From: Buxus sempervirens
Lineage: Eukaryota > Streptophyta > Magnoliopsida > Buxales > Buxaceae
Reading direction: 5' to 3'
Length of the DNA: 64,000 bases
NCBI GenBank assembly: GCA_947561395.2
Contig: OX387192.1
Span: 15,908,221 to 15,972,220 of the forward strand
Below are positions 8,987 through 61,176 of the stretch, piece after piece (the stretch's first letter is position 1; every line of letters starts with the position of its first letter). The notes beneath the pieces are model-generated. The model worked only from the letters and a program-made list of their open reading frames with translations, had not been told where the DNA came from and ran no database searches. The translations under genes were made by a program, and so were the position numbers.

Positions 8987-8998
8987 ATGTAACGCCCC

Positions 8999-10810
8999 TG
9001 TAGACACCCCAAATTGCACTACAAAATGAGAAAATAATTAAAAAATGTAATTGGAGCATAAAACAGGTAAAAAATGCATAAAATCTGGCCAGACATGCTT
9101 TGCCCGTATTTTTATTACGGGCCGGTCGCGCTCGAAGTGTCTATATGGTCAAGCGCACCCGTATTGGAAATACGGGCACCACTTGCCCGTAAAATATTTA
9201 CGGGCGCGATGTTGTTATGCGAATTTTATCTTTTCTCGATTTCTGAGCTTTATCTTTAAGCTAATATCTCTCTAGATGAGCGAATTAGCTCTTTTATTCG
9301 CTCGAGTCATCCTTGTTGGCCATGGATGGGCATTATCTCCATTTTTGATTCTATCCTAAGGATCAAGGTATATCCTTCTAGACCAGCCATACCCCTATGC
9401 TTGCCTATAAATAGAGGTGAGATTCTTAAGCAAAGGGCCACGAAATTTTGAAGACTCAAAAGCTCCAAGAGAGGAGAGGAATCCCGGCTGCTCTGCTTGC
9501 TGAATCTAGGTAAGTCCCTTTTCCCTTTTATTTACTTTTATTTTCTGTCTTCAATTCTAGAAGTAATAGGATCTTCTCCATTGCTGTAGAATAAGGCCAT
9601 CTTTTATCTTGTATTCTTAAACTTGTTTCTAAGTACCTTAAGAGTCTCTCTAGCCGTAAAACATGAAGAGAGAGCTAGGGGAAAGGGGAACAGGTGGATC
9701 CCTAGAATAGGACCCCATAATCTTTTTTTTTCTTTTCTATAGAATAAGGCCTTTGATTGTGTTTGTGTACCCAAACCTATCTCTAAGTACCTCAAGTGTC
9801 TCCCTAGCCATAAAACGTGAAGAGAGAGCTAGGGGAAAAGAGAACAGGTGGATCCGTAGGCTAGGCCTCAATGTGCTCTAATTTGTGAGATATGGCTGTT
9901 TTTGATATCCTGATCATGTTTTAATGATTTTATTTTGAATCTGGATTAATCCTATGAGTTCATGATGATTATAGCATGAAATCCTCGTTTTCTCCTAAAA
10001 TTTGGATTTTTCACACTTTTGCACCTACAGCACTGTTTTCGTGATTTTTGGGATATTAGGCTAAGATCCTGGATCTATCATGATCTATATGATAGATCTG
10101 GATTCAGAATCCTGAAGGTAACTTCTAGGGTTTTATGATGTGGCTTTTGAGTTGTTTTTCACTTTTGAGAGAAGACCCTACGATCTAAGTTCTCCCCTTT
10201 TGATGTTCTTCATCAACATTGGTCTTTTTGGTTTTTATTTTTGATTTAATGTGAAATTTGGGCTATATCTATGTCCTGGACTATTCAGGTTCAATTCTGA
10301 AATATTTTATAAAAATCATATTTTTCTAGATTTCTAGAATTTGACTTGAAGCCAGATTTTTGAAGTTTTCACTTTAGATTGATTTTATTTGATTTTATCT
10401 CAATTTTATTTTAGTCATGAAACCCTAGGAATGGTATGATCATATTTGAAAGTTCTGGATCAATCAGGCTATTCGTATGAAAAAACCATACATTTTTGTC
10501 TTTTTTATGATTTTTCATGATTTTTGTAGCAAGCCCTTTTTCTTTTGAAAAACATGAACAATACCTGGCAACCACCTTGTGTGGATGAATAGGGGTGCCT
10601 AACACCTTCCCCTGTTCATAACCTAATCCCCTTACCCATCTCTGGTTGTTTTTTTTATATAGGGTTATTTTTACCCTAAATTTGTCTTTTTGAGCTTATA
10701 AGATTTTTGGTGTCCATTCACACCTAAAAGGAATGGTGGCGACTCTTTGTTTTTAATGAATCCCGCGTGATGATGAGGAAGTCATTAAATTGATTTTTCC
10801 ATGTCTCACA
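8999..10810 (+). mobile_element. Solo LTR, Ogre/Tat-type family 1
   Basis: It starts TGTAGACACCCCAAATTGCA and ends ATGTCTCACA (1,812 bp), the same ends and length as the LTRs of the complete element at 28176-48245, but clearly diverged in sequence. It has the hairpin array (9102-9205), a TATA box in CCTATAAATAGAGG (near 9404) and the U5 primer-like motif TGGCGACTCT at 10737-10746. It sits 12 bp inside LTR B. The 5-bp flanks (GCCCC and CCGTG) do not match, so the target duplication has decayed or a small deletion occurred. Internal near-repeats occur at 9660 and 9810. Confidence 0.88.
9102..9205. promoter_or_regulatory. 28-bp-period hairpin array in U3
   Basis: Units begin at 9102, 9130 (degenerate), 9157 and 9185. 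Each is 21 nt of the form GCCCGTA-N7-TACGGGC; the last is a full inverted repeat with a 9-bp stem. The array lies about 200 bp upstream of the LTR TATA box. Confidence 0.85.
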
Positions 10811-15658: not shown

Positions 15659-15863
15659 CTGCAATTTTTCAGCCAGCCTATGTTTCATTAAACTCAAAAC
15701 ATGTTTTCCTTTTCGATTCTTGCTAAGCATAATATATTTTATTTTAAATAGTCCAAGTATATTTTTATCAAGAACTCTATGCATATGTCTTATAATTCAC
15801 CATTGTTTTCTTAAAATTATTCTTTTCAATTTTTTTTTAGGATATTTGGTTATTTCCTTTACA

Positions 15864-16869
15864 ATGGAGAGAAACACAAGTAATACACAAGCACGAGAGA
15901 AAGTGAAGGCTGTTTGGTCATATGATTATAAGAAGATACTTTTGGAAATTGCGGTTGAAGAAGTTCATAAAGGAAATCGACCAACTACAACCTTTAACCA
16001 AAAAGGATATGATAACATCATCAATGAATTTCATAAAAGGACTGGTTTGAAGTATGAGAAGGTACAATTTAAAAATATTTTTCAAAGTATGAGAAATGAG
16101 TATAAGGAGTGGAAGATCATTAAAGGAAGAAGTGGGCTAGGATGGGACCTAGATAAAAATTCCATTGTGGCAATGGAGGGTGAATGGAAAGACTATATTA
16201 AGGTAATGTTAAGTCTTACATTCATTTTATTTACCTAGTTGTCTTGATTGCTCGTGTATTAATCTAATATATAACAATTTATTGATACAGATGCATCCAA
16301 ATGCCAAAATTTTTAAGAAGGGTCCACTCCAGTTTGAAGATGAATTAGCAATATTATTTGATGGTACAACAGCCTTTGGTGAGGATGCATTTTGTTCTAC
16401 TCAAGGAGAGAGTCTGGCATCACAAAATCATAAAAATTTAGATGATACTAATACTCCCAACATTGAAATTGATGATTTGACAAATGATGATGGTAATAGA
16501 ATTCGTAAAAGGAAACATCAAAGTGAGCATCCACGTACAAAGAGAGATACCTTTAGAGGGGAGATTCAAGAGGCTATTGCCTCCTTGGTGGATATTGCAA
16601 AGCTTAGGCTACTTCGAGAGTCCACAACAATGGCACCAACGGTAACACCCCCATCAAATTCACCACCTCCATCAACACAGGATAATAACCAATATACTAT
16701 TGCATTGAAGCGTCTAGAAGAAATGGAGGAGGTTGAGATTGGAAGTGACTTATACCTGGATGCTTTGGATTTGTTCACAAATGCTGAAAAGAGAGACCTA
16801 TTTGTGGCTATGCATCCAACTGCACGTTTTAGATGGTTAACTCGTACATTGTATGGTAGTAGTCATTAG
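15864..16869 (+). CDS. PIF/Harbinger Myb/SANT-like ORF1 protein
   Basis: Exons are 15864-16202 and 16291-16869, joined by a canonical GT-AG intron, giving about 305 aa. The N-terminal domain (VWSYDYKKILLEIAVEEV, KGNRP, FNQKGYDNII, KNIFQSMRNEYKEWK, SGLGWD) is the Myb/SANT-like (Myb_DNA-bind_3) fold found in Harbinger ORF1 and related plant proteins. A basic patch RKRKH (around residue 185) may be a nuclear signal. The C-terminus has a Pro/Ser-rich linker and an acidic/leucine helix ending in FRWLTRTLYG. In the superfamily this protein binds element ends and helps transposase enter the nucleus. The ATG is preceded by a TTTTTTTTTAG acceptor at 15840, suggesting a 5' UTR intron. No lesion is seen, although the partner transposase is broken. 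Confidence 0.85.
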
Positions 16870-17346: not shown

Positions 17347-17945
17347 GTTGAAAGAGGTGCTTGAGTTCGGCAGGCGGCACCTGCTGAACTCACGCCTGAG
17401 TGCCGGAGAAAGCATCTGCGCTAGCTCACTAAATCTCCCCCAACTGCCTCATAGATGAGAAGAAGGATACGGAAGAGGCACATCGGCCCGAATGCACATG
17501 GAGGGGTGGCTATCCAAACCACTAAGGAGCTCTGTATCATGGATAGATGCTCTCAGCTCCGCAGAAATCCCTAGGCGGAAAGCTGTAGCAACACCCTCCT
17601 GGCCTAAAGCCCCGGCCTGGCCTCAGCCCCTCTCTTTGGCTCGGCCTCGGCCCCTCTCGCCAACTCTACCTCCGCCTTTCTCTCGGTCCCTACCGCGACC
17701 TCGAGCAGGAGCCACAACAGGCTAAAAGCAGAAATGGTTAGGTGGAGTCGATTTCAAAGAAAGTAGGAAAAGAAAGAAGGAATTTGAATGCCTACCTCAG
17801 CAAAGCCCTCAGCAGAGCTCTCTCTAGAATCATCTAAAGGCTCCGACAGGGTGGTGCTAGAACTCGACTCTGTCCGAGCCCGCAAAGTGGAGGGCTGATC
17901 AGCAGGGTCAGCCTCCTCTCGAATGTAGGAACGACTCCTTGCCAT
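17347..17945 (-). pseudogene. Antisense PMD-like gene of family 2, 5' exons
   Basis: Exon 1 is 17945-17796 (MARSRSYIREEADPADQ, Ser-rich, 50 codons) and exon 2 starts at 17721. It is homologous to the plus-strand gene at 31745: same MAR start, same acidic/Ser exon 1, same first intron position, Arg/Gly-rich exon 2 start, then DTELLSGLDSHPSMCIRADV matching DTDLLHGLRTHPSACVRADI. Exon 2 has in-frame TGA stops at 17625 and in the later HL-stop-GSW stretch, where family 1 has YRGSW, both consistent with CGA-to-TGA decay. The rest of the plant mobile domain is cut off at 17347. An acceptor TGTAG directly precedes the ATG, as in family 1. Transcription would start near 19190. Confidence 0.8.
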
Positions 17946-19217: not shown

Positions 19218-19294
19218 CTTTTATAACAAGGTATCCGGCAGATTATGCTGGATACAAATGAAGGCTTTCTTATCCGACTAAATATGTCGGATAC
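19218..19294 (-). promoter_or_regulatory. Promoter of the family 2 antisense gene: two 39-bp hairpins plus TATA
   Basis: Hairpins GTATCCGGC...GCTGGATAC (19231) and TTATCCGAC...GTCGGATAC (19270) start exactly 39 bp apart, the same word and period as the array in this family's LTR at 19985. On the minus strand a TATA box, TTATAAAAG (19226-19218), follows 5 bp later. Confidence 0.75.
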
Positions 19295-19299
19295 ACAGG

Positions 19300-19475
19300 A
19301 AAATAGAAAAAAAAAGAAAAAAAAGAGAAAAAGAAAAGAAAAAGGAAAAATAAAAAAAAAGAGAAAAAGGAAAAAAGGAAAAGAGAAAAAGAAAAAAAGA
19401 GAAGAAAAGAAAAAAAAAGAAGAAAAATAAAAGAGAAAAAGAAAAAAGAAGAAAAGAGAAGAAAAAAAAAAGAGA
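19300..19475. repeat. GAAA-rich low-complexity tract
   Basis: The tract is almost wholly A and G on the plus strand (AAAAAGAAAAAAAAGAGAAA style), in the element's sense direction upstream of the polypurine tract. Long open frames here are compositional artefacts. Confidence 0.95.
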
Positions 19476-19539
19476 GCAAAAAATGGGCTGCAAAGTCTGC
19501 TATTTTCACAAAAAACCCTATTTTGCCTTAAAATCTACT

Positions 19540-19735
19540 TCATAGCCATGAGAGCTCAGTGGAATTTAGGACAACTTGGAAGAAATGTATTAATCAAAAG
19601 GAAAATATTCATTCAATTTTCAACTTGGTTTGAGAAAAAAATCAGTTTTCAGAAATCTTATTTTGGGCTTAAAATCCACTTCATAGCCACGAGAGCTCAG
19701 TGGAATTTAAGACATCTTGGAGAGGTGCCCCCCTT
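19540..19735. repeat. Imperfect direct repeat, about 135 bp apart
   Basis: CATAGCCATGAGAGCTCAGTGGAATTT-like sequence at about 19541 recurs at about 19682 with similar flanks (AAAATCYACTTCATAGCCA before, GACAACTTGGA/GACATCTTGGA after). Confidence 0.8.
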
Positions 19736-19869
19736 AAAGTTAGGGCTTTTTGGCAAATCGTCACCCAAAAATTATTTTGCATAAACTGAATTGAACCAAG
19801 CAAATCATGGTTAAGGGAGTGCAATTTGGGCTTGTCTAATCTTTGTAGCTCAATGCTTCGCAACTCCCA

Positions 19870-19883
19870 CAAAGAGGGGTAGT
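19870..19883 (+). other. Polypurine tract, family 2
   Basis: CAAAGAGGGGTAGT abuts the LTR start; it is the expected plus-strand primer and matches the family 1 tract AAAGAGGGGGCAGC. Confidence 0.75.
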
Positions 19884-22186
19884 TGTAGACACCCCAAATT
19901 GCACAGAAAAATGATGAATAATTGGCAAAAATCATTATCTCCTTTGAAACCAACACAAAATTTGAGAAAATAAGCTTTTTCCTTGTATTCGACAACTCAG
20001 GTCGAATACAAGCATATTTCTTTGTATCCGACATAAGTTGTCGGATACAAGCAAACCTTAATGTATCCGGCAACATATGTCGGATACGTATAGGCGCTTG
20101 TATATCCAACTTGACATGCCGGATACAAGCTTTTTGCTCAAATTAGGGTTTTCCGAGAGTTTTCACTTTTTACCATCATGTCCTTCATTAAAGGAGTGAA
20201 AATCTCGGAAATAGCCTTAGGGCTAAGGTTGGTGGGCTCTAGACATTATTTTGTGTCTACCATCATGCAAACCCTAACCCGAGCCTTTGCCTATAAATAG
20301 GAGGCTCCTCCTTAAGCAAATGGCCATAAGTTGGAGATTGAAGAGCTCCGAGTGAAAAAGGGAACCGCTGCCGGACTGCTTCCAGAACCCAGGTAAGCCT
20401 CAAACCTCTCTTTACTTTTAAGTTTTTACATTCTAGGTCTAGTTCTCTTCTTCTACCTTTCTGTAGAATAAGGCCTATGATTTGTGTGTGAAAACCCTTC
20501 ATCTACTCAAAGTATCTCAAGACTCCCCCTGGTCGTCAAACGTGAAGGTGGGATCTAGGTGAAACGAGAATGAGGATTGATCTTAGAGTTAGAACCCTTT
20601 TTGAATAAGCCTTTTGATTCTATGAAAACCGTTTCATATTCAAAGTACCCCAAGATTATCTCGAAGAACCGTTAAACGGGGAGAGAGAACTAAGGGAAAT
20701 GAGAATGGAACGGAACCCTAGGTTGTTTTAGAACCCTATTTTGATTGATATGAATGCATGCTATCTTTGCTATGTTGTTGAAATGATTTTTACACTTACA
20801 CACAGCACGTGATTTTGGCGGGATAGGCTCATATTTCGGATTTATTGCATTCGTTGTGATAAATCTGAAATAAATAGCCTCAAGCAATTCTGGGATGTTT
20901 TTCAATAATTTTCAAAGGATTTTGATTCATCTTGCACGAATCACACACTCCTTATCACTGTTTTGAGTTGATTCTCTTTTAAAAGGCTGAAACTGGACAG
21001 CAGCTGTACCCAAACTTCGGACACTCATAACTTCATCGTCCGGATGAATTTTGGAGTGATTCCAAATCCATGGGAAAGGTGAGGCTGTCTAGTTTATGCC
21101 TACCAAATTTCATCAGTTTTTATGAAGCAGATTTTTGACACCATTCTGTCGAAATTGATAGGTCTCTTTAGGTCAAACTGTTGAACCTATCACTTCGAAT
21201 GGGCGCCATCTGCTTGTTTTAAATCCGATTCCAGTGATTTTTATTTCTGGGCACTCTTTTATGAGTCTATTTTCAAATTCAATTGGGTTCATATTTTTTT
21301 GATTTAATTTGTGTCATGGGTAGCAGATTTACTCAGAACTGCTCAACAGCATTTTTCTGGGTTAGTCTGTGATCCTCGAGGCCTGTTCGGGAAGTCACCA
21401 AAGGCACATCCGAATGAATTTTTGTATGAGGCTAGTTTCATTTGAAAGATGGCCATACATACTTCATTCACACCAAATTTCATGGATTTATATGGAGCTG
21501 ATATTTCTAGATGATTTTCCAAACTTGCCTACTTGTCACTTTTAATTATTTCCAGTAGCAATTTTAAAAGAAGCATAACTCCTAGGATTTCAACTGGATT
21601 TAATTGAAATTTTGCATGAGTCTCTTATTTACCATAATCTTTCAAATGGATTTTGTTTGATTCAATTTAAAATTGGATTTGAATGATTTCAAGACAAATG
21701 GCATTATCTTTTACCGAATTTTCCGGATTTGACTCAACTTGGCTTTGTGCAATTTTTGCTTTGATTTCCATCTATTGTTGATATTCCAGAAGTGATATTG
21801 ACATAAAAAAGGATCTGGAATCCATTTGGATTTCTCATGTGAAAATATCATACATTTGTTTAATCCTTTTTCAAGTCTTTTAATGATTTTAGCAAGCCTT
21901 CTTATTTTTTTAGCATGAACAACACTTAGCAACCACCTTATGTGGGTGAGTGGGGGTGCTTAACACCTTCCCCCGTTCATAATCTAATCCCCTTACCCAT
22001 TTCTGGATTTGATTTTCAAATAGAGTTATTTTTACTCTAGTATTTGCTTTTTTAGCTCTTTTTGCTTACTTTTAATCTTTCGGTGTCCATTCACACCCTA
22101 ACCTTGAATGGTGGCAACTCCCATGTTTTGATTGAGCCCGTGCGTTGACAGAGGGGATCACCTCAGTGATTTTTCCATATTTCACA
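19884..22186 (+). mobile_element. 3' LTR, Ogre/Tat-type family 2
   Basis: It is 2,303 bp, from TGTAGACACCCC to ATATTTCACA. Features in order: hairpin array (19985-20126), TATA box in GCCTATAAATAGGAGG (near 20292), a leader TTAAGCAAATGGCCATAAG like family 3, paired CTCAAAGTAYCYCAAGA segments (20505 and 20640), and the U5 motif TGGCAACTCC at 22112-22121 (one change from the primer-like motif). Confidence 0.85.
19985..20126. promoter_or_regulatory. 39-bp-period hairpin array in family 2 U3
   Basis: Four 25-nt hairpins start at 19985, 20024, 20063 and 20102, exactly 39 bp apart. A typical unit is GTATCCGACA-N5-TGTCGGATAC; stems are constant, loops vary. The TATA box is about 165 bp downstream. 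Confidence 0.88.
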
Positions 22187-22594
22187 ACCACTCACTCATA
22201 AAACTAGCTGTACGCCTTCTATTTACATTGTGTACTACCTTGTACAAGTATTTTATTGATTTATATAAGTCATTTGAGTGAGTGATGTAAGGGTATTCTT
22301 GATTGGTTTTTACCAGTGAAACGTTATTAAAAATTAATTATTTTGATAAAGATAGTGAAACGGATTACTAAAAATTAATTATTTTGATAAAGATTTATTA
22401 AAGTTAAAATTTAAAATATTACTGACTGAATTTTAATTATTTTAAAAGTATCGTTTTTATCATAAACAAACAATACCGCAGAAGAAAAAGGAACGAAAAG
22501 GCAAGTCTATCATCCATATCACTTTATACTTTGTTTTGGTTCAATTCTTCAAGACGTGGTGATCCATCGACCTTGGCCAATCAAGTTACGTGAA

Positions 22595-27758: not shown

Positions 27759-28175
27759 ATTACAAGTCCTACCATGCCTGTTACAAGTCCCACCATGCCC
27801 GGTTACAAGTCCCACCATGCCTGTTACAAGTCTTACCATGCCCCGTTACAAGTCCCACCATGCCCCGTTACAAGTCCAACCATTCCAGTCACAAGTCTTA
27901 TCATGCATGGTTACAAGTCCTACCATGCCCCCGTTGCAAGTCCAACCATGCCAGTTACAAGTCTTACCATGCATGGTTACAAGTCCCACCATGCTCCGTT
28001 ACAAGTCCCATCATGCCTGTTACAAGTCCTACCATGCATGGTTACAAGTCCCATCATACTTAGTTACAAGTTCCACCATGCCTGTTACAAGTCCCACCAT
28101 GCCCCGTTACAAGTCCTACCATGCATGGTTACAAGTCCCACCATACCCGGTTACAAGTCCTACCATGCTTGGTTA
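27759..28175. repeat. About 20-bp minisatellite, left part
   Basis: Units are TTACAAGTCCCACCATGCC with variants (CATGCATGG, CATTCCAG), about 20 copies. It is cut at 28175 by the complete retrotransposon; the array resumes at 48246. GGTTA at 28171-28175 is the target duplication. Confidence 0.95.
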
Positions 28176-29984
28176 TGTGAGACATGGAAAAAAAATCAAT
28201 TTACTGATTTCCTCAATCATCACACGGGATCAAATAAAACAAAGAGTCGCCACCATTCAATTTAGGTGTGAATGGACACCAAAATATTAAATAAGCACAA
28301 AAGTCAAATTTTAGGGCAAAATATCCCTCCTAAAAAAAACAACCAGAGATGGGTAAGGGGATTAAGTTATGAACAGGGGAAGGTGTTAGGCACCCCTATT
28401 CATCCACACAAGGTGGTTGCCAGGTATTGTTTATGTTTAAATTAAAGGAAAAAGCTTGCTATAAAAATCATGAAAAATCACAAAAATACAAAACTTGTAT
28501 GGTTTTTTCATACGAATAGTCTGATTGATCCAGAACTATCAAATATGATCATACCATTCATAGGGTTTCATGATAAAAATAAAATTGAGATAAGATCCAA
28601 TAAAATCAATTTAAAGTGAAAAATCCAAAAATCTGGCTTCAAGTTAAAATTCTAGAAATCTAGAAAAATATGATTTTTATAAAATATTTCAAACTTGAAC
28701 TTGAATAGTCCAGGACATAGGTAAAGCCCAAATTTCACATTAAATCAGAAAATAAAAACCAAAAATACCCACGTTGATGAAGAACACAAAAAAGAGAGAA
28801 TTTAGACCGTAAGGTCTTATCTCAATAATGAAAAACAATTTAAAAACCATATCATGAAACCCTAGAATTTACTTTCAGGCTTCTAGATTCAGATCTACCA
28901 TATTGATCATGATAAATCCAGGATCCTAGCCTAAAATCACAAAAATTGCAAAAACAGTGCTGTAGGTGCAAAAGTGTGAAAAATCCAAATTTTATCAAAA
29001 AGTGGGGATCTCATGCTATAAACATCATAGATTCATGTAATTCATTCAGATATATCATAAAAAGCATTAAAACATAATCAGGATATTCAAAACAGCCACA
29101 TCTCACAAATTAGAGCACATGGGGGTCTACCCTACGGATCCACCTGTTCTCTTTTCCCCTAGTTCTCTCTTCACGTTTTACGGCTAGAGAGACTCTTGAG
29201 GTACTTAGAGATAGGTTTGGTTACACAAACACAATCACAGGCCTTATTCTATGAAAAAAAGAAAAAAACAGATATGGGGTTCTATTCTAGGGATCCACCT
29301 GTTCCCCTTTCCCCTAGTTCTCTCTTCACGTTTTACGGCTAGAGAGACCCTTGAGGTACTTAGAGACAAGTTTAGGAATACAAAATAGATATGGCCTTAT
29401 TCTACAGCAATAGAGATGATCCTATTACATCTAGAATTGAAGACAGAAAATAAAAAGGGATAGGGGACTTACCTGGATTGAGCAGGCAGAGCAGCAGGGA
29501 TTCCTTTCCTTCTCTTGGAGCTTTTGATTCTTCAAAATTTCGTGGCCCTTAGCTAGAGGAAAGAGCCTCTATTTATAGACACACCCAGGGGCATGGTTGG
29601 TCCAGAAGGATATAGCCTGGTCTTTAGGATAGAGTAAAATACAGAGATAATGCCCATCCATAGCCAACCAAGGTAGCTTCAGCGAATAAAATACTTAATT
29701 CGCTCGTTTAAAGATATATTGGACTTTAAATAAAGCTCGGAAATCGAGAGAAGGACAAAACTCGCACGTGTCTTTAATGCCCGTAAATGATTTACGGTCC
29801 AACGGTGACCGTATTGTTACTACGGGCGCGCCTGTCCGTAGATAATTTTCGGGGGCGATGGGCCCGTGAAGGAAATACGGGCAAAGCCTGTTTATTCAAT
29901 TTTATGCTTTTTTGACCTGTTTTAAGCTCTAATTACATGTTTTTATTACTTTCTCATTTTGCAGTGCAATTTGGGGTGTCTACA
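28176..29984 (-). mobile_element. 3' LTR of the complete element
   Basis: It is 1,809 bp, with plus-strand ends TGTGAGACATGG and GGGGTGTCTACA. On the minus strand, in order: U3 hairpin array (29882-29779), TATA in GTCTATAAATAGAGG (near 29575), and the U5 motif TGGCGACTCT (28252-28243). Confidence 0.95.
29779..29882. promoter_or_regulatory. 28-bp hairpin array, 3' LTR U3
   Basis: Units start at 29779, 29807, 29834 and 29862 (spacing 28, 27, 28), of the form G(C/A/T)CCGT(A/G)-N7-TACGGGC, some decayed. Confidence 0.85.
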
Positions 29985-29998
29985 GCTGCCCCCTCTTT
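29985..29998 (-). other. Polypurine tract of the complete element
   Basis: On the minus strand AAAGAGGGGGCAGC lies directly before the 3' LTR start TGTAGACACC. Confidence 0.85.
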
Positions 29999-30335: not shown

Positions 30336-30439
30336 GCCCGTATTTGGCTTACGGACAGATCCTGCCCGTAGAGGGTTCACGGGCGACCGGGACCGTATGG
30401 ATTTCATGGGCGTCTGATGCCCGTACTGATGTTACGGAT
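30336..30439 (+). promoter_or_regulatory. 28-bp hairpin array upstream of antisense gene 1
   Basis: Units start at 30336, 30364, 30391 and 30419; all are 21-nt hairpins with the family word GCCCGTA/TACGGGC and different 7-nt loops. Just downstream, TTCTTAAG then CTCGCGACCGCGACT aligns with the TATA-plus-GCGACCGCGACT core promoter of the family 2 antisense gene, so the transcription start is probably near 30460-30480. Confidence 0.8.
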
Positions 30440-31744: not shown

Positions 31745-34652
31745 ATGGCCCGTCTTCGATCAGCTTCCCGGGATCCTGCAGATGAGCCTTCCTCTTCTAG
31801 GGTTAGGCGAGATCCTGCTGATGTGGCCTCGTCTTCGAGGGCTGAGAGAGATTCGGATTCTGATGTCCCAGATCTCCCTTTTGGGGATTCGCGTGAGGCG
31901 ACCCCAGAGGTATTCTCTAACCCTTCTGAATTTAATATTCCTTTTCAAAACACATCATCTTGATTCTTTCCTCCCTTTAATTATTTTCTTTTAGCCGGCT
32001 GTTGAGGCTTCGGGCAGGGATAGGAGCCGTAGTAGGCGTCGAGCAGGAGGTAGAGATGTGGGCCATGATGAGGGCCGTAGAGGAGGCCGCAGAGGGGGCT
32101 GTGGCAGAGATGAGGCCAGGACCAGGGTTGAGATCCCTGAGGAGGTAGCTGCCCAGATTAGGGATACCGATCTTCTGCATGGCTTGAGGACTCATCCCTC
32201 AGCGTGCGTTAGGGCGGATATCCCTTTGGAGTATCCGATGTCCCATTATAGAGGGAGCTGGGCCAGCTTTGCTAGATTCTTGAGAGCTTGCAGTTCGGCC
32301 TATCGTCGGGAGTTAGGCTTATATGGATTTGGCATGTTTATCACCATCCCGGACGTTCGCTTGGATCGAGCCCTCATTGCTGCATTGCTGGAGAGGTTTT
32401 TCCCGGAGACATTGAGCTTCCACTTCCCAGATATTGAGATTGGGATCCGGCCTTCTGATTTCACGCTCATCACCGGGATTAGGATGATCGGTGATGTTAT
32501 TCCTGAGATGACGATGCCAGAGGCTGATGAGATTGCTGGTTATCTTGGATATATTGTACTGCCTCCCGAGGCCTGGGATCGGGGGAGAGCGAGATTGTCT
32601 CTGACATGGTTGAGAGAGACTTTCAGTAGGAGGCAGTTTGGCCAGCTTGCTACCGGTGATCATGTATTCCCCTTCGCCTTCCGATTCCTTTTTCTGTATA
32701 TGATGGGATCTTGCTTCTTCCCAGAGGACACGACTTCAGTTAGTCCTTATTTTCTGAGTCTTCTGGGAGATCTGCAGCGGGCGAGGAGGTATGCATGGGG
32801 TCCGCTTATTTTTGGTACTATTCTGGCCAGCCTGCACCGATCAGTGAGCGGCCTCTCTACTTCCAGAGGGGCTGGAGTTGGGTGCAGGTTCTTCTGGACC
32901 TTCTTGCAGGTGAACCTTATTTCCCTTCTTTTTCTTTATCTCTTTCTTTTTATCTCTCATTTTCTATTCTTCTGACTATTTTCTTCTTTCTTGCAGTTTT
33001 TTTCTAGGGTTTATATACCCTATTTCCGCCCTACCTCTACGATGCCTGAGGAGACGTATCCCATGGCACTTAGATGGTGTCATGTAGAGCACGACTCTGA
33101 AAAGAGTCGTCCCAGGTCTGCCCGGGCCCACTTAGACAGGTTATACCGGTCTGAGGTAATCTTCTTTAATTCCTCTACTTCTTCTTTTCTTTTCTTCCTG
33201 GATCGCATATCTGATGTCCTGTTCTGTTTTTCAGCTATTTGTCCCCAGGATGGAGGACATTCATGAGGTGCTGGCCCTGCAGGCAGCCAGAGATGATGCA
33301 TTTGTCCCTGACCAGAGACGATAGAGATACCAGTTCTTTATTGGTCAGCTGGGCAGCATCTGGTACTACGGCGAGCGCTTCTTCTTTCAGCATGTGGGAG
33401 AGCCGCGGATTCCTGCCATCCCGCCAGATACTACTCCTTTCTATCCTCCTATGCCTGTTGATCCTGCCCAGTTCCTAGATTGGACTGAGGCAGAGACATT
33501 ATTGGAGGAAGGTGACTATGATGCCTGGTTCAGGCGAGCTTCTGTTGGGTGCCTCATGTCACCCATGCCTGTCCGTGGCGGAGTCACGGAGATAGGAGGG
33601 GTAGTGATTAGGGCCTACGACACTACGGTATGCCTTCTTCTTTTTCACCTTTCTATTTTCATTTCATCTGCACTTAGCATTTTTATGACTTCTTTCTTTT
33701 CGATTTCAGGAGGTCCAGTTGGCAGAGATCCGGTCTCGTTATGCTGATCTAGAGCGCCAGCGAGATGCTGCGATTGCCGAACTGGATGCCCTCTATATCA
33801 CCATTTCAGACCTCCGGGAGCAGCTAGCCAGAGCACGGGGCCAGGAAGGTCCATCTGATGCACAGGACCCGGCGGGTCCATCTTATACTCAGGTTAAATT
33901 CTTCTTTTATTTCCATTCTTGCTCTTGCATTTGTTTGTCTTGTTTTGACTGAATTTTTCTTATAGTTTCAGGAGGACACAGCCGGCCCTTCTTCTCCTGC
34001 TTCACCCGTGCCCATGCATTTTCGGGACGAGGTATTTTCTGTGGCACGGGTGGAGTTCGTGACGTCTCCCAGTCCAGTAGAGATTCCTGCAGCAGAGCCC
34101 GAGGTCGAGGCTGACATTGTACCTGCTGCTGAGGATGTGCCAGAGTCGGCCCCAGTAGCTGAGATTGCTCCTGATGCGTCTGCTGATGTAGATATGGATT
34201 TGGATATGGACGCCGCTGTGGTAGAGCCTACTTTGGAGACTACGGTGATGGAGGAGGCTACAACTGATCCTGTAGAGCCCGAGGTGGAGACGACTGCCAC
34301 TGAGCCTGTGGAGCCTGAGGTTGATGTACCTGGGACATCTGCTCCTACTGGTCCTGCTATGGAGGCTGTAGAGGAGGCGCCTGCTGCTGTTGATCCTTCT
34401 GCGGATTCTTCCCGTACAGAGTCTGATCCCGATTCTACAAGATATGTAGATACTTCAGGGTACGTCCCTCCTGATCATCCCACTGCTGGCCTTGTGCCTT
34501 TATATATGTGGCATGATATTCAGTCTGTTTTGAGCAGGATGACGCGTAGCACAGCTCGCAATATTGTGTGGCATGTCTTTGAGCGCAGGCAATCTTCAGG
34601 CCGTGGTCGAGGCAGAGGACGAGGCCGTGGCCGTAGGGGTGGACCTGCATAG
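31745..34652 (+). pseudogene. Antisense gene 1: plant mobile domain (PMD) protein, six exons, one stop
   Basis: Coding exons are 31745-31909, 31995-32909, 32997-33155, 33235-33627, 33710-33892 and 33966-34652; all introns are GT-AG and every join keeps frame, about 833 codons. Exon 1 is Ser/Asp-rich; exon 2 starts Arg/Gly-rich then holds the plant mobile domain (aminotransferase-like PMD), with RADIPLEYPMSHYRGSWASF, FFPETLSFHFPDIEIGIRPS and DFTLITGIRM. Exon 5 is a coiled coil, exon 6 is acidic/Pro-rich and ends in an RGRGRG tail. PMD proteins such as Arabidopsis MAIN and MAIL1 act in the nucleus on gene expression and transposon silencing. The only lesion is an in-frame TAG at 33322-33324. 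It lies antisense to gag-pol near the 3' LTR, with a family 2 homologue at 17945. Confidence 0.85.
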
Positions 34653-34867: not shown

Positions 34868-35029
34868 AACCGTATTTATTCTACGAGCAGGCTGTGCCCG
34901 TAAAATTACTACGGGCGCACTCTGCCCGTGAAGTTTTCACGGTCAGGCGTGTCCGTAGTTCCTACACGGGCGCGCTTTGCCCGTAGTATAATTACGGAAT
35001 TTACTGCCTTACGATTTTTTCTATATAAA
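34868..35029 (+). promoter_or_regulatory. Antisense gene 2 promoter: five hairpins plus TATA box
   Basis: Hairpin units start at 34868, 34896, 34924, 34951 and 34979 (28-bp step, one 27) and carry the same word as the LTR arrays. The TATA box CTATATAAAC (35021-35030) follows about 22 bp after the last hairpin. The predicted start near 35053 gives a 5' UTR of about 68 nt. Confidence 0.82.
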
Positions 35030-35120: not shown

Positions 35121-36898
35121 ATGGCTTCCCCTACGCCGCTTTCTCCTGCCGTTGAATCTCCTCCTGCAAGACAACCTGTTAGATCAAAACCTCCTAATCT
35201 TACCAGGTACAATATTGTGGATTCCTTTTATGATAGATGGGTTAACTCCATGACCCTTGATGAGGAGATTCGTTGGGATTCCATCCACTTAGGGCACATC
35301 CTACACCTCCCTAAAATTCCCTTTAAGTGGGAAATCATTGAAGCTTTGATTGGCCACTGGGTACCTGAGCTGAATCTCTTCCGTTTTGATGACAAAGAGA
35401 TGACTCCCACCATAGAAGAAATTGAAACCATCCTTGGCCTTAGATTTTCTGAAAAAGTTGTGAACCCACCCCTAAAGCTTAGTTATAAAAAAGAGGCTTC
35501 CACTTTCTTGGGTATAGGGAAGAAGGACTTAGGAAATTCTGATGCACTATTGACCTTGTCCAAGACCTTTTTGACTGAAAAACTTCTGAGGAGTAATGAC
35601 AAGGACGCTAGGTTTAATGCATTGACCCTGGTAGTGATCAATCAGCTGCTTTTTCCACGGGGTGATGACCAGGTTGACTTGGCTCTCATCTCAGTTATCT
35701 GCCAGGTTAGGGAACACGAGAGGTTGGCCCTATGATCCTAGCAGAGATATATCAGGCCCTTACTGATTGTTATTTCAGGAAGAAGAAACGCTTCCTTACC
35801 TGCGCCCCTATCCTACAGGTAAAAAATATGCATATATTTTTTTCTTTTCTATTTTTTTTCTTTTTATTCTTTCTTTCCTTTCTTCTTCTTTTTCTTCTCT
35901 CTGCTTCTTCTTCTTCTTCTCTTTTTTCTCTTTTTTTTTCTTTTTCTTTCTCTCTTTTTTTTTCTTTTTTTGGAAATAAATTGAAATACTCCCTTTTTCT
36001 GCAGCTTTGGTTGCTTGACCATCTTAGCCAGGTTGAAGAAATAACTCGCCGCTTCTTTCCAAGATTGAAAGTTCCTGTTTTGATGAGCAATAGGGGATGT
36101 CCTAACATCCAAGGTGGCAAGCAAGGCTGGTTCACTTTCTTGGGTACTCTCCAGGATGATCAAGTGAGATGGCCTGGCACTTATCAGCCCACTCCAGAGA
36201 CAGTGATTAGCTTTAGGGATAAAAACTTTTTGGCCCTAGCAGGCTTGAAATCTGCTGTTCTCTATCTTCCTTTGAGGGTTCTTCGGCAATTTGGAGCGAC
36301 CCAGGGAATTATGATCCCCACAGGTTATGAGAGCTTTGTAGGGCCACTTACATCAGCCACCATGGGGCTAAATGCTCAATTAATGAAAGAGTGGTCCTAT
36401 GTTTGCTTTCTGCGGGGTCCAGTCTTTTCTGAGTCCCATGTGAAGGACTATCATTTCTGGATCAAAGAACAGGTGCAGAGTCATGCCCCAGTACCAGAGG
36501 ATCCTTCTGCAGTTCTTCCTCCTACCTATGAAGATATTCTGGAGTCAGAAAGGGCAACCCATAAACGGCTTCAACAAATATGGGTACGGGAGGCTCAAGA
36601 ACTTAGGATAAAAGTCCTTGTTCTGGAGAGGAAGCTTGAAGAGCAGAAGTCTGGCCGTATTGCCATGGAGAAGAAACTTGAAGAACAAAGGCAAGCTCGT
36701 CGCTTTGAAGTCCGAGTGATGCGGAAGAAGTATCAGGATTCCTTGGCCGACCTTAGGGCGTTGAAGATCAAGCTTTCTTTTTCAGATGAAGTCATCTCCT
36801 TTTTGAGTGATCCTGATGCAGAGGGTGCTTCTGGAATCATTGCAACTCAGGCAGCTAGGATTAGGGAGCTTGAGGAGCAGTTAGGGAGTAGGGATTAG
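35121..36898 (+). pseudogene. Antisense gene 2: PMD/DUF7745-like protein with coiled coil, one frameshift
   Basis: The start is ATG 35121 in the good plant context TTCCATGGCT. Exon 1 is 35121-35818, exon 2 is 36005-36898, with a long T-rich GT-AG intron. The N-terminal half (RWVNSMTLDEEIRWDSIHLG, WEIIEALIGHWVPELNLFRF, MTPTIEEIETILGLRFSE) resembles DUF7745-type plant mobile domain relatives that often occur in retrotransposons. Exon 2 continues the globular part (LWLLDHLSQVEEITRRFFPR) and ends in a long coiled coil (ERATHKRLQQIW, LEEQRQARRFEVRV, IRELEEQLGSRD). One nucleotide is missing near 35731: the frame ending RLAL-stop continues one frame over as MILAEIYQALTDCY. Function is unknown; a nuclear or chromatin role is inferred from the PMD family only. 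Confidence 0.8.
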
Positions 36899-43996: not shown

Positions 43997-44225
43997 GGCG
44001 AGAGCTCTTGATCTGGTTACAGGAGCTCTGATTGCAAGTGTATTGGTACCTGGATAAAAAAGAAAATATCAGTGCCAATTTAATCTCATTCACATGTCTA
44101 GGAATGCCTATGTGCAAGCTGGGTGAACACGAGGTTGGATTTTTTTTTTATTTGCTTCTTTTTTTTTTTTGAATTGTTGGAATATTCTAGGGCTTCCAAC
44201 AGGTCCCACAAAAGAGAGAAAGATC

Positions 44226-45087
44226 TGAAATTCAAAGGCTTTCAGAGGCCCGGGGGGTTTTTGAAAAATGTCTGAAATTCAAAGGCTTTCAGAGGCCCAG
44301 GGATATTTTTGGAAAAGGTCTGAAATTCAGAGGCTTTCAGAGGCCCGGGATTTTTGATGAAAGTCTGAAATTCAAAGGCTTTCAGAGGCCCAGGGATATT
44401 TTGAAAAAAGTCTGAAATTCAAAGGCTTTCAGAGGCCCAAAAGTTCTGAAATTCAAAGGCTTTCAGAGGCCCAAAAGGAAAAGGTCTGAAATTCAAAGGC
44501 TTTCAGAGGCCCAGAAGTTCTGAAATTCAAAGGCTTTCAGAGGCCCAAAAGATAAAGGTCTGAAATTCAAAGGCTTTCAGAGGCCCAAAAGTTCTGAAAT
44601 TCAAAGGCTTTCAGAGGCCCAAAAAAAAAAGGTCTGAAATTCAAAGGCTTTCAGAGGCCCAAAAGATTCTGAAATTCAAAGGCTTTCAGAGGCCCAAAAG
44701 ATAAAGGTCTGAAATTCAAAGGCTTTCAGAGGCCCAAAAGTTCTGAAATTCAAAGGCTTTCAGAGGCCCAGGATTTTTGAAAAATCTGAAATTCAAAGGC
44801 TTTCAGAGGCCCAAGAGTTTTTTAAGAAAAAGTCTGAAATTCAAAGGCTTTCAGAGGCCCGGGATTTTTTGAAAAATCTGAAATTCAAAGGCTTTCAGAG
44901 GCCCAGGATTTTTGAAAAATATGAAATTCAAAGGCTTTCAGAGGCCCAAGAGTTTTTTAAGAAAAAGTCTGAAATTCAAAGGCTTTCAGAGGCCCGGGAT
45001 TTTTTGAAAAATCTGAAATTCAAAGGCTTTCAGAAGCCCAAGAGTTTTGAAAAAGTCTGAAATTCAAAGGCTTTCAGAAGCCCAAGG
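44226..45087. repeat. 21-unit tandem repeat in the gag leader
   Basis: The core TCTGAAATTCAAAGGCTTTC followed by AGAGGCCC recurs about 21 times with variable A/G/T-rich spacers (total unit about 33-48 bp). The core is partly palindromic (CTGAAA...TTTCAG). It lies between the primer site and gag. Confidence 0.95.
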
Positions 45088-45238: not shown

Positions 45239-45371
45239 AACCGTATACACAGTACGGTCCAGCCCTGCCCGTATTCAAATTATGAGCAAGCCGTGACCGT
45301 ATGGAAAACACGGGCGAGCCTAGCCCGTATAACTAATACGGGCAAGCCCAGCCCGTGTACCAAATGCGGTT
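45239..45371. promoter_or_regulatory. 28-bp hairpin array in the 5' leader
   Basis: Five units start at 45239, 45267, 45295, 45323 and 45351, exactly 28 bp apart, with the family word (best copy GCCCGTA-TAACTAA-TACGGGC). No gene or TATA box is obvious next to this one. Confidence 0.88.
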
Positions 45372-46434: not shown

Positions 46435-48245
46435 TGTGAGACATGGGAAAAAAATCAATTTACTGATTTCCTCAATCATCACACGGGATCAAATAAAACA
46501 AAGAGTCGCCACCATTCAATTTAGGTGTGAATGGACACCAAAATATTAAATAAGCACAAAAGGCAAATTTTAGGGCAAAATATCCCTCCTAAAAAAAACA
46601 ACCAGAGATGGGTAAGGGGATTAAGTTATGAACAGGGGAAGGTGTTAGGCACCCCTATTCATCCACACAAGGTGGTTGCCAGGTATTGTTCATGTTTAAA
46701 TTAAAGGAAAAAGCTTGCTATAAAAATCATGAAAAATCACAAAAATACAAAACTTGTATGGTTTTTTCATACGAATAGTCTGATTGATCCAGAACTATCA
46801 AATATGATCATACCATTCATAGGGTTTCATGATAAAAATAAAATTGAGATAAGATCCAATAAAATCAATTTAAAGTGAAAAATCCAAAAATCTGACTTCA
46901 AGTTAAAATTCTAGAAATCTAGAAAAATATGATTTTTATAAAATATTTCAAACTTGAACTTGAATAGTCCAGGACATAGGTAAAGCCCAAATTTCACATT
47001 AAATCAGAAAATAAAAACCAAAAATACCCACGTTGATGAAGAACACCAAAAAGAGAGAATTTAGACCGTAAGGTCTTATCTCAATAATGAAAAACAATTT
47101 AAAAACCATATCATGAAACCCTAGAATTTACTTTCAGGCTTCTAGATTCAGATCTACCATATTGATCATGATAAATCCAGGATCCTAGCCTAAAATCACA
47201 AAAATTGCAAAAACAGTGCTGTAGGTGCAAAAGTGTGAAAAATCCAAATTTTATCAAAAAGTGGGGATCTCATGCTATAAACATCATAGATTCATGTAAT
47301 TCATTCAGATATATCATAAAAAGCATTAAAACATAATCAGGATATTCAAAACAGCCACATCTCACAAATTAGAGCACATGGGGGTCTACCCTACGGATCC
47401 ACCTGTTCTCTTTTCCCCTAGTTCTCTCTTCACGTTTTACGGCTAGAGAGACTCTTGAGGTACTTAGAGATAGGTTTGGTTACACAAACACAATCACAGG
47501 CCTTATTCTATGAAAAAAAAGAAAAAAACAGATATGGGGTTCTATTCTAGGGATCCACCTGTTCCCCTTTCCCCTAGTTCTCTCTTCACGTTTTACGGCT
47601 AGAGAGACCCTTGAGGTACTTAGAGACAAGTTTAGGAATACAAAATAGATATGGCCTTATTCTACAGCAATAGAGATGATCCTATTACATCTAGAATTGA
47701 AGACAGAAAATAAAAAGGGATAGGGGACTTACCTGGATTGAGCAGGCAGAGCAGCAGGGATTCCTTTCCTTCTCTTGGAGCTTTTGATTCTTCAAAATTT
47801 CGTGGCCCTTAGCTAGAGGAAAGAGCCTCTATTTATAGACACACCCAGGGGCATGGTTGGTCCAGAAGGATATAGCCTGGTCTTTAGGATAGAGTAAAAT
47901 ACAGAGATAATGCCCATCCATAGCCAACCAAGGTAGCTTCAGCGAATAAAATACTTAATTCGCTCGTTTAAAGATATATTGGACTTTAAATAAAGCTCGG
48001 AAATCGAGAGAAGGACAAAACTCGCACGTGTCTATAATGCCCGTAAATGATTTACGTTCCAACGGTGACCGTATTGTTACTACGGGCGCGCCTGTCCGTA
48101 GATAATTTTCGGGGGCGATGGGCCCGTGAAGGAAATACGGGCAAAGCCTGTTTATTCAATTTTTATGCTTTTTTGACCTGTTTTAAGCTCTAATTACATG
48201 TTTTTATTACTTTCTCATTTTGCAGTGCAATTTGGGCTGTCTACA
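46435..48245 (-). mobile_element. 5' LTR of the complete element
   Basis: It is 1,811 bp, nearly identical to 28176-29984. Hairpin array units start at 48039, 48067, 48094 and 48122, with the TATA near 47835 and the U5 motif at 46502-46511. The U3 end reads GGGCTGTCTACA where the other LTR has GGGGTGTCTACA. Confidence 0.95.
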
Positions 48246-49200
48246 GGTTATAAGTCCCACCATGCCCCATTACAAGTCCCACCATACCCGGTTACAAGTT
48301 CCACCATGCTTGTTACAAGTCCCACCATGCCCCGTTACAAATCCTACCATGCCTGGTTATAAGTCCAACCATGCCCACTTACAAGTCCAACCAACCCTAC
48401 TTACAAGTCCAACCTACCCTACTTACAAGTCCAACCATGCCCACTTACAAGTCCAACATACCGTACTTACAAGTCCAACCATGCTCACTTACAAGTCCAA
48501 CCTACCCCACTTACAAATCCAACAAACCCTACTTACAAGTCCAACCAACCCTACTTACAAGTCTAACCTACCCTACTTACAAGTCCATCCAACTTACCCT
48601 ACTTACAAGTTCAACCAACCCCACTTACAAGTCTAACCTACCCTACTTACAAGTCCAACCTACCCTACCCTACTTACAAGTCCAACCTACCGTACTTACA
48701 AGTCCAACCAACCCTACTTACAAGTCCAATCACGCCCACTTACAAGTCCAACCTACCCTACTTACAAGTCCAACCATGCCCACTTACAAGTCCAACCTAC
48801 CCTACTTACAATTTCAACCATGCCCACTTACAAGTCCAACCTACCCCACTTACAAGTCCAACCAACCCCACTTACAAGTCTAACCTACCCTACTTACAAG
48901 TCCAACCTACCCTACCCTACTTACAAGTCCAACGAACCCTACTTATAAGTCCAACCAACCCCACTTACAAGTCTAACCTACCCTACTTACAAGTCCAACC
49001 AACCCCACTTACAAGTCCAACCAACCCTACTTACAAGTCCAACCTACCCTATCCTACTTACAAGTCCAACCTACCTTACTTACAAGTCCAACCTACCCTA
49101 CTTACAAGTCCAATGAACCCTATTTACAAGTCCAACCTACCCCACTTACAAGTCCAACCTACCCTACCCTACTTACAAGTCCAACCTACCCTACTTACAA
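48246..49200. repeat. About 20-bp minisatellite, right part
   Basis: It starts with GGTTA (target duplication) and CATGCC-type units like the left part, then changes near 48400 to CTTACAAGTCCAACCTACCC units, with occasional extra ACCCT steps. Open frames across it are repeat artefacts. Confidence 0.95.
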
Positions 49201-49786
49201 TTCATAAAAGATGGAAAAAAAATACTAAGGGTGACGATTTCGGGACGATTTCCGGACGCTCGAGCGGGAGGTTCCGAATTTGGGTTGGTTTTTAAAAATT
49301 TTGGACCGTTTTACGCTCACTCGAGCGTCAAGCACAACTTTCACAAACTCAGAAAACCCGAGCGTAACGCGTTCTTCGCGTTTTTCTACCGTTCTTCGCG
49401 TTTTTCAACCGCTCGAGCGTCAAGGCAAATTTTAAAAAACTCAGAAAACCCGAGAGTGACGCGTTATATTGATTTACATATTATAATATAATAAACATAT
49501 TATATTGATTTATTGCCATTAATAATATTATATTTATAATAATTTAATTATATTAATATAATATTATAATATATATACTATTTTACAATTTCATATTGTA
49601 ATAAATTTCTTATACTAATATAATAAACATAAATTATATTATTATAATATGATTTATATTATAATATAATATAATATTATAGAAGTGTGCAATTATTATA
49701 ATTGTTACGTATATTATATAATATTATAATAGTCTTATGTAATGTTACAATAATATTATTATAATACACATAATATTAGTTTTGGC
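49201..49786. other. CGAG-rich then AT-rich stretch
   Basis: 49230-49460 has repeated GCTCGAGCG words and two AACTCAGAAAACCCGAG segments (49347 and 49440), plus a GTTCTTCGCGTTTTTC doublet. 49465-49775 is almost pure A/T. No gene is seen. Confidence 0.7.
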
Positions 49787-60084: not shown

Positions 60085-61176
60085 TGTAGAAACCCCAAAA
60101 TTACACGATTTTTGATAAACCTTGAAGGAGAGAAATATTTTATTAGAATTTTTAATTCTTAGCATTGGGTTTGAGATCCTTAACCCATTTGAATCCAAAA
60201 CCATAAAGAAAAAGACCAAAATTCAATCTTTTGCGCAAAGTCTAACTTTTTTCGGTTGAATTTTGTTGACTTTTGACCCTAAAAAATGAAATACTTTTTA
60301 AGGCAAGATTTCAAGATAATTTTTCCCTATAATTAGGTTTTTAGCAATGTTATTGCATAAATGAATTTTTGAGCCTTTAAATCTTGACAAATACCTTGGT
60401 ATTAACACGTTGAATCTTTTTACCGAACCTGAAAAACTAGGATTTAGCCTTGAACTGGAAAGTTGACTTTTTATTTACTTGGAATTTGGGTCTAAAACTA
60501 ATTTTAATGGATTCAAATGGGGGGGGGGGGGGGTGTTTGCTTATTTACATGTAATATCTTAAGTAAATGGAGATTAAAAAATACGAGGACATTTACTTAA
60601 ATGATATTACATGTAAATAAGTATTTCTTGTGCAGGTAAGGGTCAGTGCCATACAGAAGCTATGCAAAAAGTCATTTTTGCCCTGAACCGAAATTAAAGT
60701 TCGGATAAAAGCATTTTTCTTTGTATCCGAAATTATAGTTCGGATAAAAGCATTTTTCTTTGTATTCGAAATTATATTTTGGATAAAACTATTTTTCTTT
60801 GTATCCGAAATTATATTTCAGATACAAGCCTTTTTCTTTGTATCCGAAATATTATTTCGGATACAAAGATTTTTGTTTGTATCTGACCTGAGTTGTAGGA
60901 TACACATGTTTTGTTCAAAATTGGAATATCCCTCGAGTTGTCACTTATTTACTTCTATACCTTTGTCGAAGAAGTGGGAATTCCAGAATTTAGACTCCAA
61001 GATTAATCATATTCTTCCAAGTCCATGCTTTAGGGTTAAGTTAAAAGGTTCTAGACACACTTTTGTGTCTACCATTAGGGCTCCCTTTGCCCTAGCTCTT
61101 GCCTATAAATAGAGGGCTTCTCCTCAAGCAAATGGCCAGAGATTGAAGAGCTACAAGTGAAGAAGGGAACCCCTGC
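60085..61176 (+). mobile_element. Ogre/Tat-type LTR family 3, 5' part
   Basis: It starts TGTAGAAACCCCAAAATTAC, a variant of the family 1/2 start, directly inside the chromovirus-type pol (left flank CAATC). It has a six-unit 39-bp hairpin array (60684-60903), TATA in GCCTATAAATAGAGGG (near 61103) and a leader CTCAAGCAAATGGCCAGAG close to family 2. A G-run lies at 60521-60533. An LTR-4 element interrupts it at 61177. Confidence 0.78.
60684..60903. promoter_or_regulatory. 39-bp-period hairpin array, six units
   Basis: Units start at 60684, 60723, 60762, 60801, 60840 and 60879, exactly 39 bp apart. The typical unit is GTATCCGAA-N7-TTCGGATAC; several arms have single changes. The TATA is about 200 bp downstream. 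Confidence 0.9.

Follow-up and report, generated by a model that had tools for sequence, protein, structure and literature searches.

Why should two promoters of one retrotransposon, that of its long terminal repeat (LTR) and that of a gene read from the opposite strand, carry the same short repeated word? The question is raised by a 64-kb window (the whole stretch of DNA analysed here, G000:C15:15908221-15972220) of a 676.5-Mb genome, in which two families of elements are represented, family 1 and family 2 (the 39-bp family). The family-1 element lies on the minus strand, with gag, integrase and two antisense genes inside the LTR pair 28176-48246. Both the gag and the integrase of a Ty3/gypsy element match within this pair (Retrotrans_gag, 1.6e-11; rve, 8.2e-14), and the label Ogre-type rests on its naming in an earlier, sequence-only reading and on an open reading frame (ORF) with the PMD domain. 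That reading had noticed hairpin-like words at the LTR and at an antisense promoter in both families, with word and period differing between the families, and had proposed that a shared trans-acting factor recognises them. This interpretation is partly supported. We lean toward regarding the arrays as predicted promoter-proximal sites of one shared trans-acting factor, most likely the element's own antisense PMD/DUF7745 protein.

Arrays of facing half-sites at the likely promoters of two families

When the 64-kb window was scanned for the family-2 word (TATCCGAC-N7-GTCGGATA, at most three mismatches), 10 matches were found, compared with 0, 0, 1 and 0 in four first-order Markov resamples. Six of them lie at 19986, 20025, 20064 and 20103 (steps 39, 39, 39) and at 19232 and 19271 (step 39), and the other four in another LTR at 60.7-60.9 kb. 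Dyads had been claimed at both the LTR and the antisense promoter, and they are present at a period of exactly 39 bp; the coordinates first given lay one base earlier, as they included the leading base. The accompanying claim of the same word at both family-2 sites holds for the mixture of AC and GC types that the sites share, not letter for letter, as the dyad at 19231 is of the GC type, with three mismatches to the AC word and one core mismatch.

For family 1, GCCCGTA-N6..8-TACGGGC (at most three mismatches) gave 29 matches in the window and 5, 2, 3 and 2 in the resamples. Six clusters with steps of 27-28 bp, beginning at 9102, 29779, 30336, 34868, 45239 and 48039, contain 24 of the 29. One word occurs at four kinds of site, namely U3, two antisense promoters and the 5′ leader, and two of these, before the second antisense gene (34868-34999) and in the leader (45239-45343), are additional to those noticed earlier. 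Family 1 had been credited with another word at 28 bp. Its word is indeed distinct, but the steps are 27-28 bp and the two words are not wholly unrelated, since the frame CCG-N11-CGG (CCG-xy-N7-y'x'-CGG) is common to both families, with xy being TA in family 1. The dyad of the 39-bp family is GTATCCGxy-N7-y'x'CGGATAC, with four copies in U3 of the window LTR and two by the promoter of the antisense PMD gene. The outer gap is about 11 bp in family 1, so that half-sites alternate about every 14 bp, and 22 bp in the 39-bp family. The periods of 28 and 39 bp differ by 11 bp, which by arithmetic on the sequence is near one helical turn.

In both families, the antisense array sits between the 3′ LTR and the antisense gene. 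Its distance from the LTR is 0.35 kb in family 1 and, among the 30 elements of the 39-bp family sampled below, 0.46-0.68 kb in 29 and 1.06 kb in one. The two promoters had been called unlinked, a description that fails, as the distance between the antisense array and the U3 array of the 3′ LTR is ~0.45 kb in family 1 and ~0.69 kb in family 2. In 17 of the 30 elements, a TATA-like box (loose pattern set) lies 5-9 bp away from the gene-side edge of the antisense array, with a CGCG-rich stretch after it; in the window copy the box, read on the minus strand, is 5 bp away. In the five elements inspected, 155-200 bp separate the end of the U3 array from the TATAAATA that follows it; in the window LTR of family 2 the distance is ~165 bp. 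We read this LTR as the 3′ LTR of a truncated element to its left, and its positions 21840-22188 are similar to the 3′ ends of family-1-type LTRs. The antisense PMD gene claimed for family 2 was found in part: in the window copy only a stretch ahead of the PMD domain match was detected, and it resembles the family-1 exon piece over residues 10-85 of the latter.

Genome-wide, exact GTATCCG-N11-CGGATAC occurs 30,553 times and exact GCCCGTA-N7-TACGGGC 11,266 times. The reversed-pattern control was 0 for each, and the chance expectation for 14 fixed letters in 676.5 Mb is ~2.5 (arithmetic, with even base use). Over spacings N12 to N22, the range covered by the spacing control, the first word gave 113 exact matches in total for the eleven spacings, with 14 for the reversed pattern. 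Of 61,106 half-sites, 164 (77+87) have a pyrimidine at letter 8. Ancestral dyads have been multiplied by copy number, and these counts therefore show fixity of the frame and letter class, not independent origins. Among the matches listed, four 39-bp-type elements have paired U3 arrays 20.1-20.7 kb apart (5′ U3 arrays at C1 3409377, 3441584, 3679718 and 4234111). By match coordinates alone, these elements also have exact GT-word dyads (one, one, two and three) lying 4.7-5.7 kb ahead of the 3′ LTR, at about the place of family 1's second antisense promoter.

Letters of the U3 and antisense words vary together

There are 1538 3′ LTR junctions of the 39-bp type in the genome, and we read 50 of these loci in addition to the window copy: the first 30 listed and 20 chosen from the other 70 of 100 listed, all on contig C1 and all matching the junction pattern exactly. 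A second junction pattern, which may overlap with the first, gave 1911 hits. A script found an antisense pair in 28 of the 50. One locus was removed (L058, nested, with a mis-set junction) and two with one dyad each were added (L031 and L042), giving 30 elements with a readable antisense array, including the window copy (L001). LTR copies with no antisense array in reach (L002, L003, L005-L008) were used only in U3 counts and a second tree, and L004 yielded no LTR start. The family-1 sample consists of the window element and one further LTR. The period is nearly invariant in the 39-bp family, with 160 of 165 U3 steps equal to 39 bp, as are all 29 antisense steps among pairs admitted at 37-41 bp.

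Across the 30 elements, the variable letters xy form the series AA, AC, GC, GT, GA/GT. With classes set by the commonest U3 letters, the AA class holds L050 and the window LTR at 60.7 kb; AC holds L001, L016, L038 and L042; GC holds L044, L048, L052 and L051, the last mixed AC/GC; GT, with few or no GA, holds L013, L019, L040, L041, L046 and L049; and GA/GT holds 15 elements with a GA/GA first dyad. U3 and antisense words vary together, with a Mantel r of 0.85 (n=30), or 0.71 for 16 collapsed lineages. A partial Mantel test on the rank of the array-masked LTR-flank tree distance gave 0.73 (n=30) and 0.60 (16 collapsed). Word overlap was 0.68 / 0.66 (30 elements / collapsed) within elements and 0.40 / 0.30 between elements, and none of 5000 permutations reached any of these Mantel, partial Mantel or overlap values. 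Spearman correlations between the two sites were 0.77 / 0.84 for G at letter 8 and 0.73 / 0.83 for C at letter 9. Co-variation by family, as the sequence-only reading had it, was thus borne out in 30 elements, 29 of them beyond the window copy.

The paired arms had also been taken as hairpins. Such arms are present, but it is the half-sites that seem to be read, as letters 8-9 agree between the two arms in no more than 98 of the 176 dyads (after collapsing, 55 of 94), and the GA/GT class typically has GA/GT and GA/GC dyads. Because the arms are so often unlike, the half-site is the likely recognition unit. RNA or cruciform hairpins are scarcely credible as the functional unit. The arms are complementary enough to have caught the eye, yet they are too often unlike, and the same letters recur across separate hairpins beyond what pairing alone requires. 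In the GA/GT class, for example in the first U3 dyad of L009, the letters GA and then T make the half-site GTATCCGGATAC, a perfect palindrome.

On the array-masked LTR tree, the word classes form a ladder; most GA/GT branches are very short, and those of L057 and L013 are long. Classes nested on a tree and few switches are what descent alone would give if subfamilies simply inherited both arrays and the classes reflected methyl-cytosine decay from GC to AC in older copies, GC to AC being a C-to-T change on the other strand. We consider this very improbable. Decay would be expected to hit CpG no more slowly, yet among the 80 half-sites of 10 AC-class U3 arrays 61 are AC and 72 of 80 core CpGs are intact, in a count that admitted dyads with at most four core mismatches and so favours intact cores. 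We disfavour decay from GC to AC on the strength of these CpGs. Moreover, GT to GA is a transversion, and descent alone leaves unexplained the same letters in separate half-sites. The words of L013 are discordant, with GT in U3, a GA-class antisense array and an internal flank close to that of L009; its LTR and interior may therefore have different histories. A tree built from internal flanks was set aside: it looked noisy, with purine-rich low-complexity sequence as the probable cause, and it split word classes in places.

A shared factor, a host factor or copied arrays

How might such arrays work? In the mechanism we propose, a half-site would be CCG plus family-specific letters, with two half-sites facing each other at a fixed CCG-N11-CGG and dyads repeating at 28 or 39 bp. 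One sequence-specific factor would occupy the U3 and antisense promoters and either activate them or protect them from silencing. If the specificity of this factor shifted, selection would drive largely the same letters through the element's half-sites. The arrays, where they lie, the words they have in common and the co-variation are observed, and comparison supports change in place; binding by a protein, its identity and its effect are our inference. A factor that co-evolves with the element is favoured because the letter change is graded and element-wide. As its own promoter has such sites, the antisense PMD/DUF7745 protein is the natural candidate. A comparable arrangement exists in En/Spm, where the element protein TnpA binds many short motifs near its own promoter and activates the methylated promoter. 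En/Spm is a DNA transposon with a different protein, unlike the elements here.

Host transcription factors could read the words instead, with subfamilies using different factors or tolerating different letters of one. U3 and antisense promoters could then have a common host activator and need no element-encoded factor, and some of the words include known plant cores, the CCGAC of the AC class being similar to the DREB/CBF core. We think this explanation unlikely, if worth keeping in view. U3 and antisense promoters go through a graded series of letters together (AA, AC, GC, GT, GA), and a frame that stays at 11 bp while its letters change is more what one expects of a co-evolving partner than of a conserved host factor.

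Loops and words were compared unit by unit in 14 elements that have four dyads in U3 and two at the antisense promoter (GA/GT elements counted as GT). Loop identity was 0.62 for the same unit in another word class versus 0.42 for different units of one element (background 0.40). Word overlap showed the reverse, at 0.57 for different units of one element versus 0.15 for the same unit in another class (background 0.16). Loops keep their array position and words follow the element, and on this ground the words seem to have been altered in place, with the units retained. The U3 word contrast is partly built in because the classes were set from U3; U3-to-antisense word overlap, largely free of this bias, was 0.43-0.71 within an element and 0.08-0.28 with elements of another class. 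In family 1, the words of different sites are 0.78-0.83 alike, while loops and spacers are at shuffled level in five of the six pairwise comparisons of U3, antisense 1, antisense 2 and leader. As a positive control, two homologous LTRs gave 0.54 for loops and spacers (0/500 shuffles).

A number of findings weigh against a shared factor, and some of them would suit copying, with antisense and U3 arrays being mutual copies, or homogenised by gene conversion or template switching, and no selection involved. The first antisense loop is like the first U3 loop (0.68 within an element, 0.62 between classes), the steps 28/27/28 are common to family-1 U3 and antisense 1, and the non-word letters of family-1 U3 and antisense 2 are slightly more alike than shuffles (0.44; 19/500). 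Two loops of the third-site dyads, those 4.7-5.7 kb before the 3′ LTR, are the U3 unit 1 loop and the reverse complement of the U3 unit 4 loop, so these dyads and U3 may have a common origin. In the window, moreover, ~0.45-0.7 kb separates the sites at the 3′ end. The arrays may have an old origin in common. As the source of the present words, copying seems improbable to us, as conversion would require tracts of ~9 bp or less at every half-site and the loops of each unit persist across word classes while the words change. Three stretches are more alike between the families than any of 200 shuffles: the LTR start (first 40 letters, with 36 matches in 38 aligned), a stretch between LTR and antisense array (80/97) and one from around the TATA box onward (227/289). 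None of them touches the arrays; they lie on both sides of the U3 array and between LTR and antisense array, though words and period differ. Copying of arrays as one block with their flanks, which the sequence-only reading had set against its own proposal, is disfavoured by the unit-wise comparison of loops, spacers and words, although the residual hints above remain.

The other contrary findings concern the number of switches and the fit between sites. Independent switches are few, about four in the 39-bp family: on the tree of 30, the majority letter 8 changes once per site and the majority letter 9 three (U3) or four (antisense) times. The match between U3 and antisense words is imperfect in L013, L044, L046 and L051, and the first antisense dyad of most GT/GA elements retains a GC half-site. 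No TATA-like box stands at the usual place in 13 of the 30 antisense promoters, and the gene-side flank of the antisense array showed no significant similarity between the families (score 30, against a shuffle maximum of 36). From 117 scored PMD hits of 8447 candidates, 30 loci were fetched, and none of these has at least two of either dyad within 1.5 kb. Finally, 20 of the 50 junction loci show no antisense array within ~1.45 kb.

Nineteen of those 20 loci fall in two groups with a different internal body. In seventeen of the 20, the first U3 dyad is of GA type, as in the GA/GT class, with which they group on the LTR tree; seven of these (L023-L029, C1:8464678-8556643), with 3′ LTR junctions at steps of ~15.32 kb and no antisense array in reach, are apparently a tandem amplification of one element. 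Class-matching U3 words in copies without the antisense array would fit a trans-acting factor; LTR exchange or inheritance would look identical. We tentatively extend the shared-factor reading, in a form we consider somewhat more apt to fail than to hold: an Ogre-type antisense PMD-family protein would read a two-half-site code (CCGxy-N11-y'x'CGG) at all promoters of its element, and protein and code would step together, so that subfamilies speciate, each activating or un-silencing only its own copies and related copies without the antisense gene.

PMD hits also occur in pairs ~3.4 kb apart (e.g. C3:45640023-45641069 and 45643445-45644521), their open frames being ~575 and ~590 aa; many score equally, which suggests a young family; the few first-listed members fetched, such as L086, had no dyad arrays within 1.5 kb. 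At two further loci (L076 and L079, 3550-3850 in each), a direct repeat of ~69 bp lies ~0.8-1.1 kb upstream of another PMD gene type. A search of a large protein collection with the PMD piece returned 3712 candidates, none at E <= 0.001, and solved structures gave no match with E up to 10. Against Pfam, with E up to 10, the two window PMD pieces matched only PMD and DUF7745, and neither DUF1985 nor DUF287.

Related systems and other features of the window

The nearest behavioural parallel is VANDAL, a Mutator-like element of Arabidopsis. The accessible parts of two reports (PMC5735166, PMC10398659) describe family-specific short motifs bound by the element-encoded anti-silencing protein VANC, targets that evolve via gain and loss of tandem repeats, and repeated peptides in variable parts of VANC proteins. 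The analogy drawn by the sequence-only reading is apt in this respect: both systems have short, family-specific repeated motifs in non-coding parts that change together between related families. Here, however, the element is an LTR retrotransposon, the half-sites face each other at a fixed N11 at likely promoters, and the words seem to have changed in place by substitution, with the units keeping their identity. The DUF1985/DUF287 comparison also sets the two window PMD pieces apart.

PMD is itself familiar from retrotransposons. As far as the available text of each source goes, it is found in 57% of Ogre elements (PMC6317226), and two PMD clades are encoded only by Gypsy elements, while MULEs have captured PMDs separately from the Gypsy clades and an anti-silencing role has been speculated for MULE PMDs (PMC5418596). 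The window element resembles PMD-bearing Ogre elements: it is Ty3/gypsy and has gag, integrase and extra ORFs that code for PMD. The parts of PMC6317226 and PMC5418596 at hand say nothing about word arrays at promoters or about their varying together. Antisense accessory genes between pol and the 3′ LTR are a likeness to Retand and Grande. In the portion of PMC11963269 available, the Retand ORFs at this place are suggested to bind DNA and are accompanied by family-specific tandem repeats; they have TRP28 instead of PMD, and no shared promoter word is mentioned. In a search of paper titles and abstract openings that covered few subscription journals, we found nothing on shared promoter words in PMD-bearing retrotransposons, which is weak evidence of novelty.

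If a retrotransposon PMD protein reads these words, the element offers a ready panel of matched proteins and sites for PMD function and the evolution of specificity, and sequence-specific self-recognition would extend from DNA transposons to LTR retrotransposons. The 41,819 exact dyads of two kinds (30,553 + 11,266) in one genome would then be a natural record of stepwise change.

Table 1. Coordinates of LTRs, dyad arrays and antisense genes in the 64-kb window.
Feature	Position	Strand	Details
Family-1 3′ LTR	28176..29985	-	8 substitutions / 1810 aligned letters vs 46435-48246
Family-1 5′ LTR	46435..48246	-	pairs with 28176-29985
Family-1 U3 array, 3′ LTR	29779..29882	-	GCCCGTA-N7-TACGGGC, steps 28/27/28
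Family-1 U3 array, 5′ LTR	48039..48142	-	steps 28/27/28
Family-1 antisense promoter 1 array	30336..30439	+	steps 28/27/28
Family-1 antisense promoter 2 array	34868..34999	+	five dyads, steps 28/28/27/28; then TATATAAA at 35022
Family-1 leader array, between 5′ LTR and gag	45239..45343	-	steps 28/28/28
Family-1 antisense gene 1, ORF piece with PMD (PF10536)	32058..32975	+	E 1.5e-18; antisense to gag-pol
Family-1 antisense gene 2, DUF7745 (PF24924) in two overlapping ORFs	35121..36898	+	domain match
U3 array of diverged family-1-type LTR (8997-10810, 85% identity)	9102..9205	+	word and steps as family 1
Family-2 LTR (39-bp family), begins TGTAGACACCCC	19884..22188	+	junction CACAAAGAGGGGTAGT|TGTAGACACC
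Family-2 U3 array	19985..20127	+	four dyads, period 39; half-sites 6/8 AC, 2/8 GC
Family-2 antisense-promoter array	19231..19294	-	two dyads, period 39 (GC/GC, AC/AC)
Family-2 antisense PMD gene, surviving part ahead of PMD domain match	17389..17622	-	tblastn 47% identity, E 3e-16
U3 array of another 39-bp-family LTR	60686..60905	+	CCGAA words, AA class

The second dyad of the array in the diverged family-1-type LTR is damaged. The first ORF of family-1 antisense gene 2 also matches PMD, but under the Pfam cut-off. A 39-bp tandem duplication (31772-31852; 2.1 copies, 76% matches) lies close to where antisense gene 1 presumably starts (ATG 31745). Beside the break in the family-2 element, a Myb/SANT-like ORF (PF12776, 2.8e-22) and a neighbouring ORF occupy 15720-16869, possibly a DNA transposon that interrupts the element. 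The family-1 leader also contains, at 44219-45086, a tandem array (40-47 bp) that has a dyad word of its own, TCTGAAA...TTTCAGA, unlike the promoter word. A 22-bp tandem array (TTACAAGTCC...) flanks the family-1 element on both sides, at 27760-28175 and 48247-49204.

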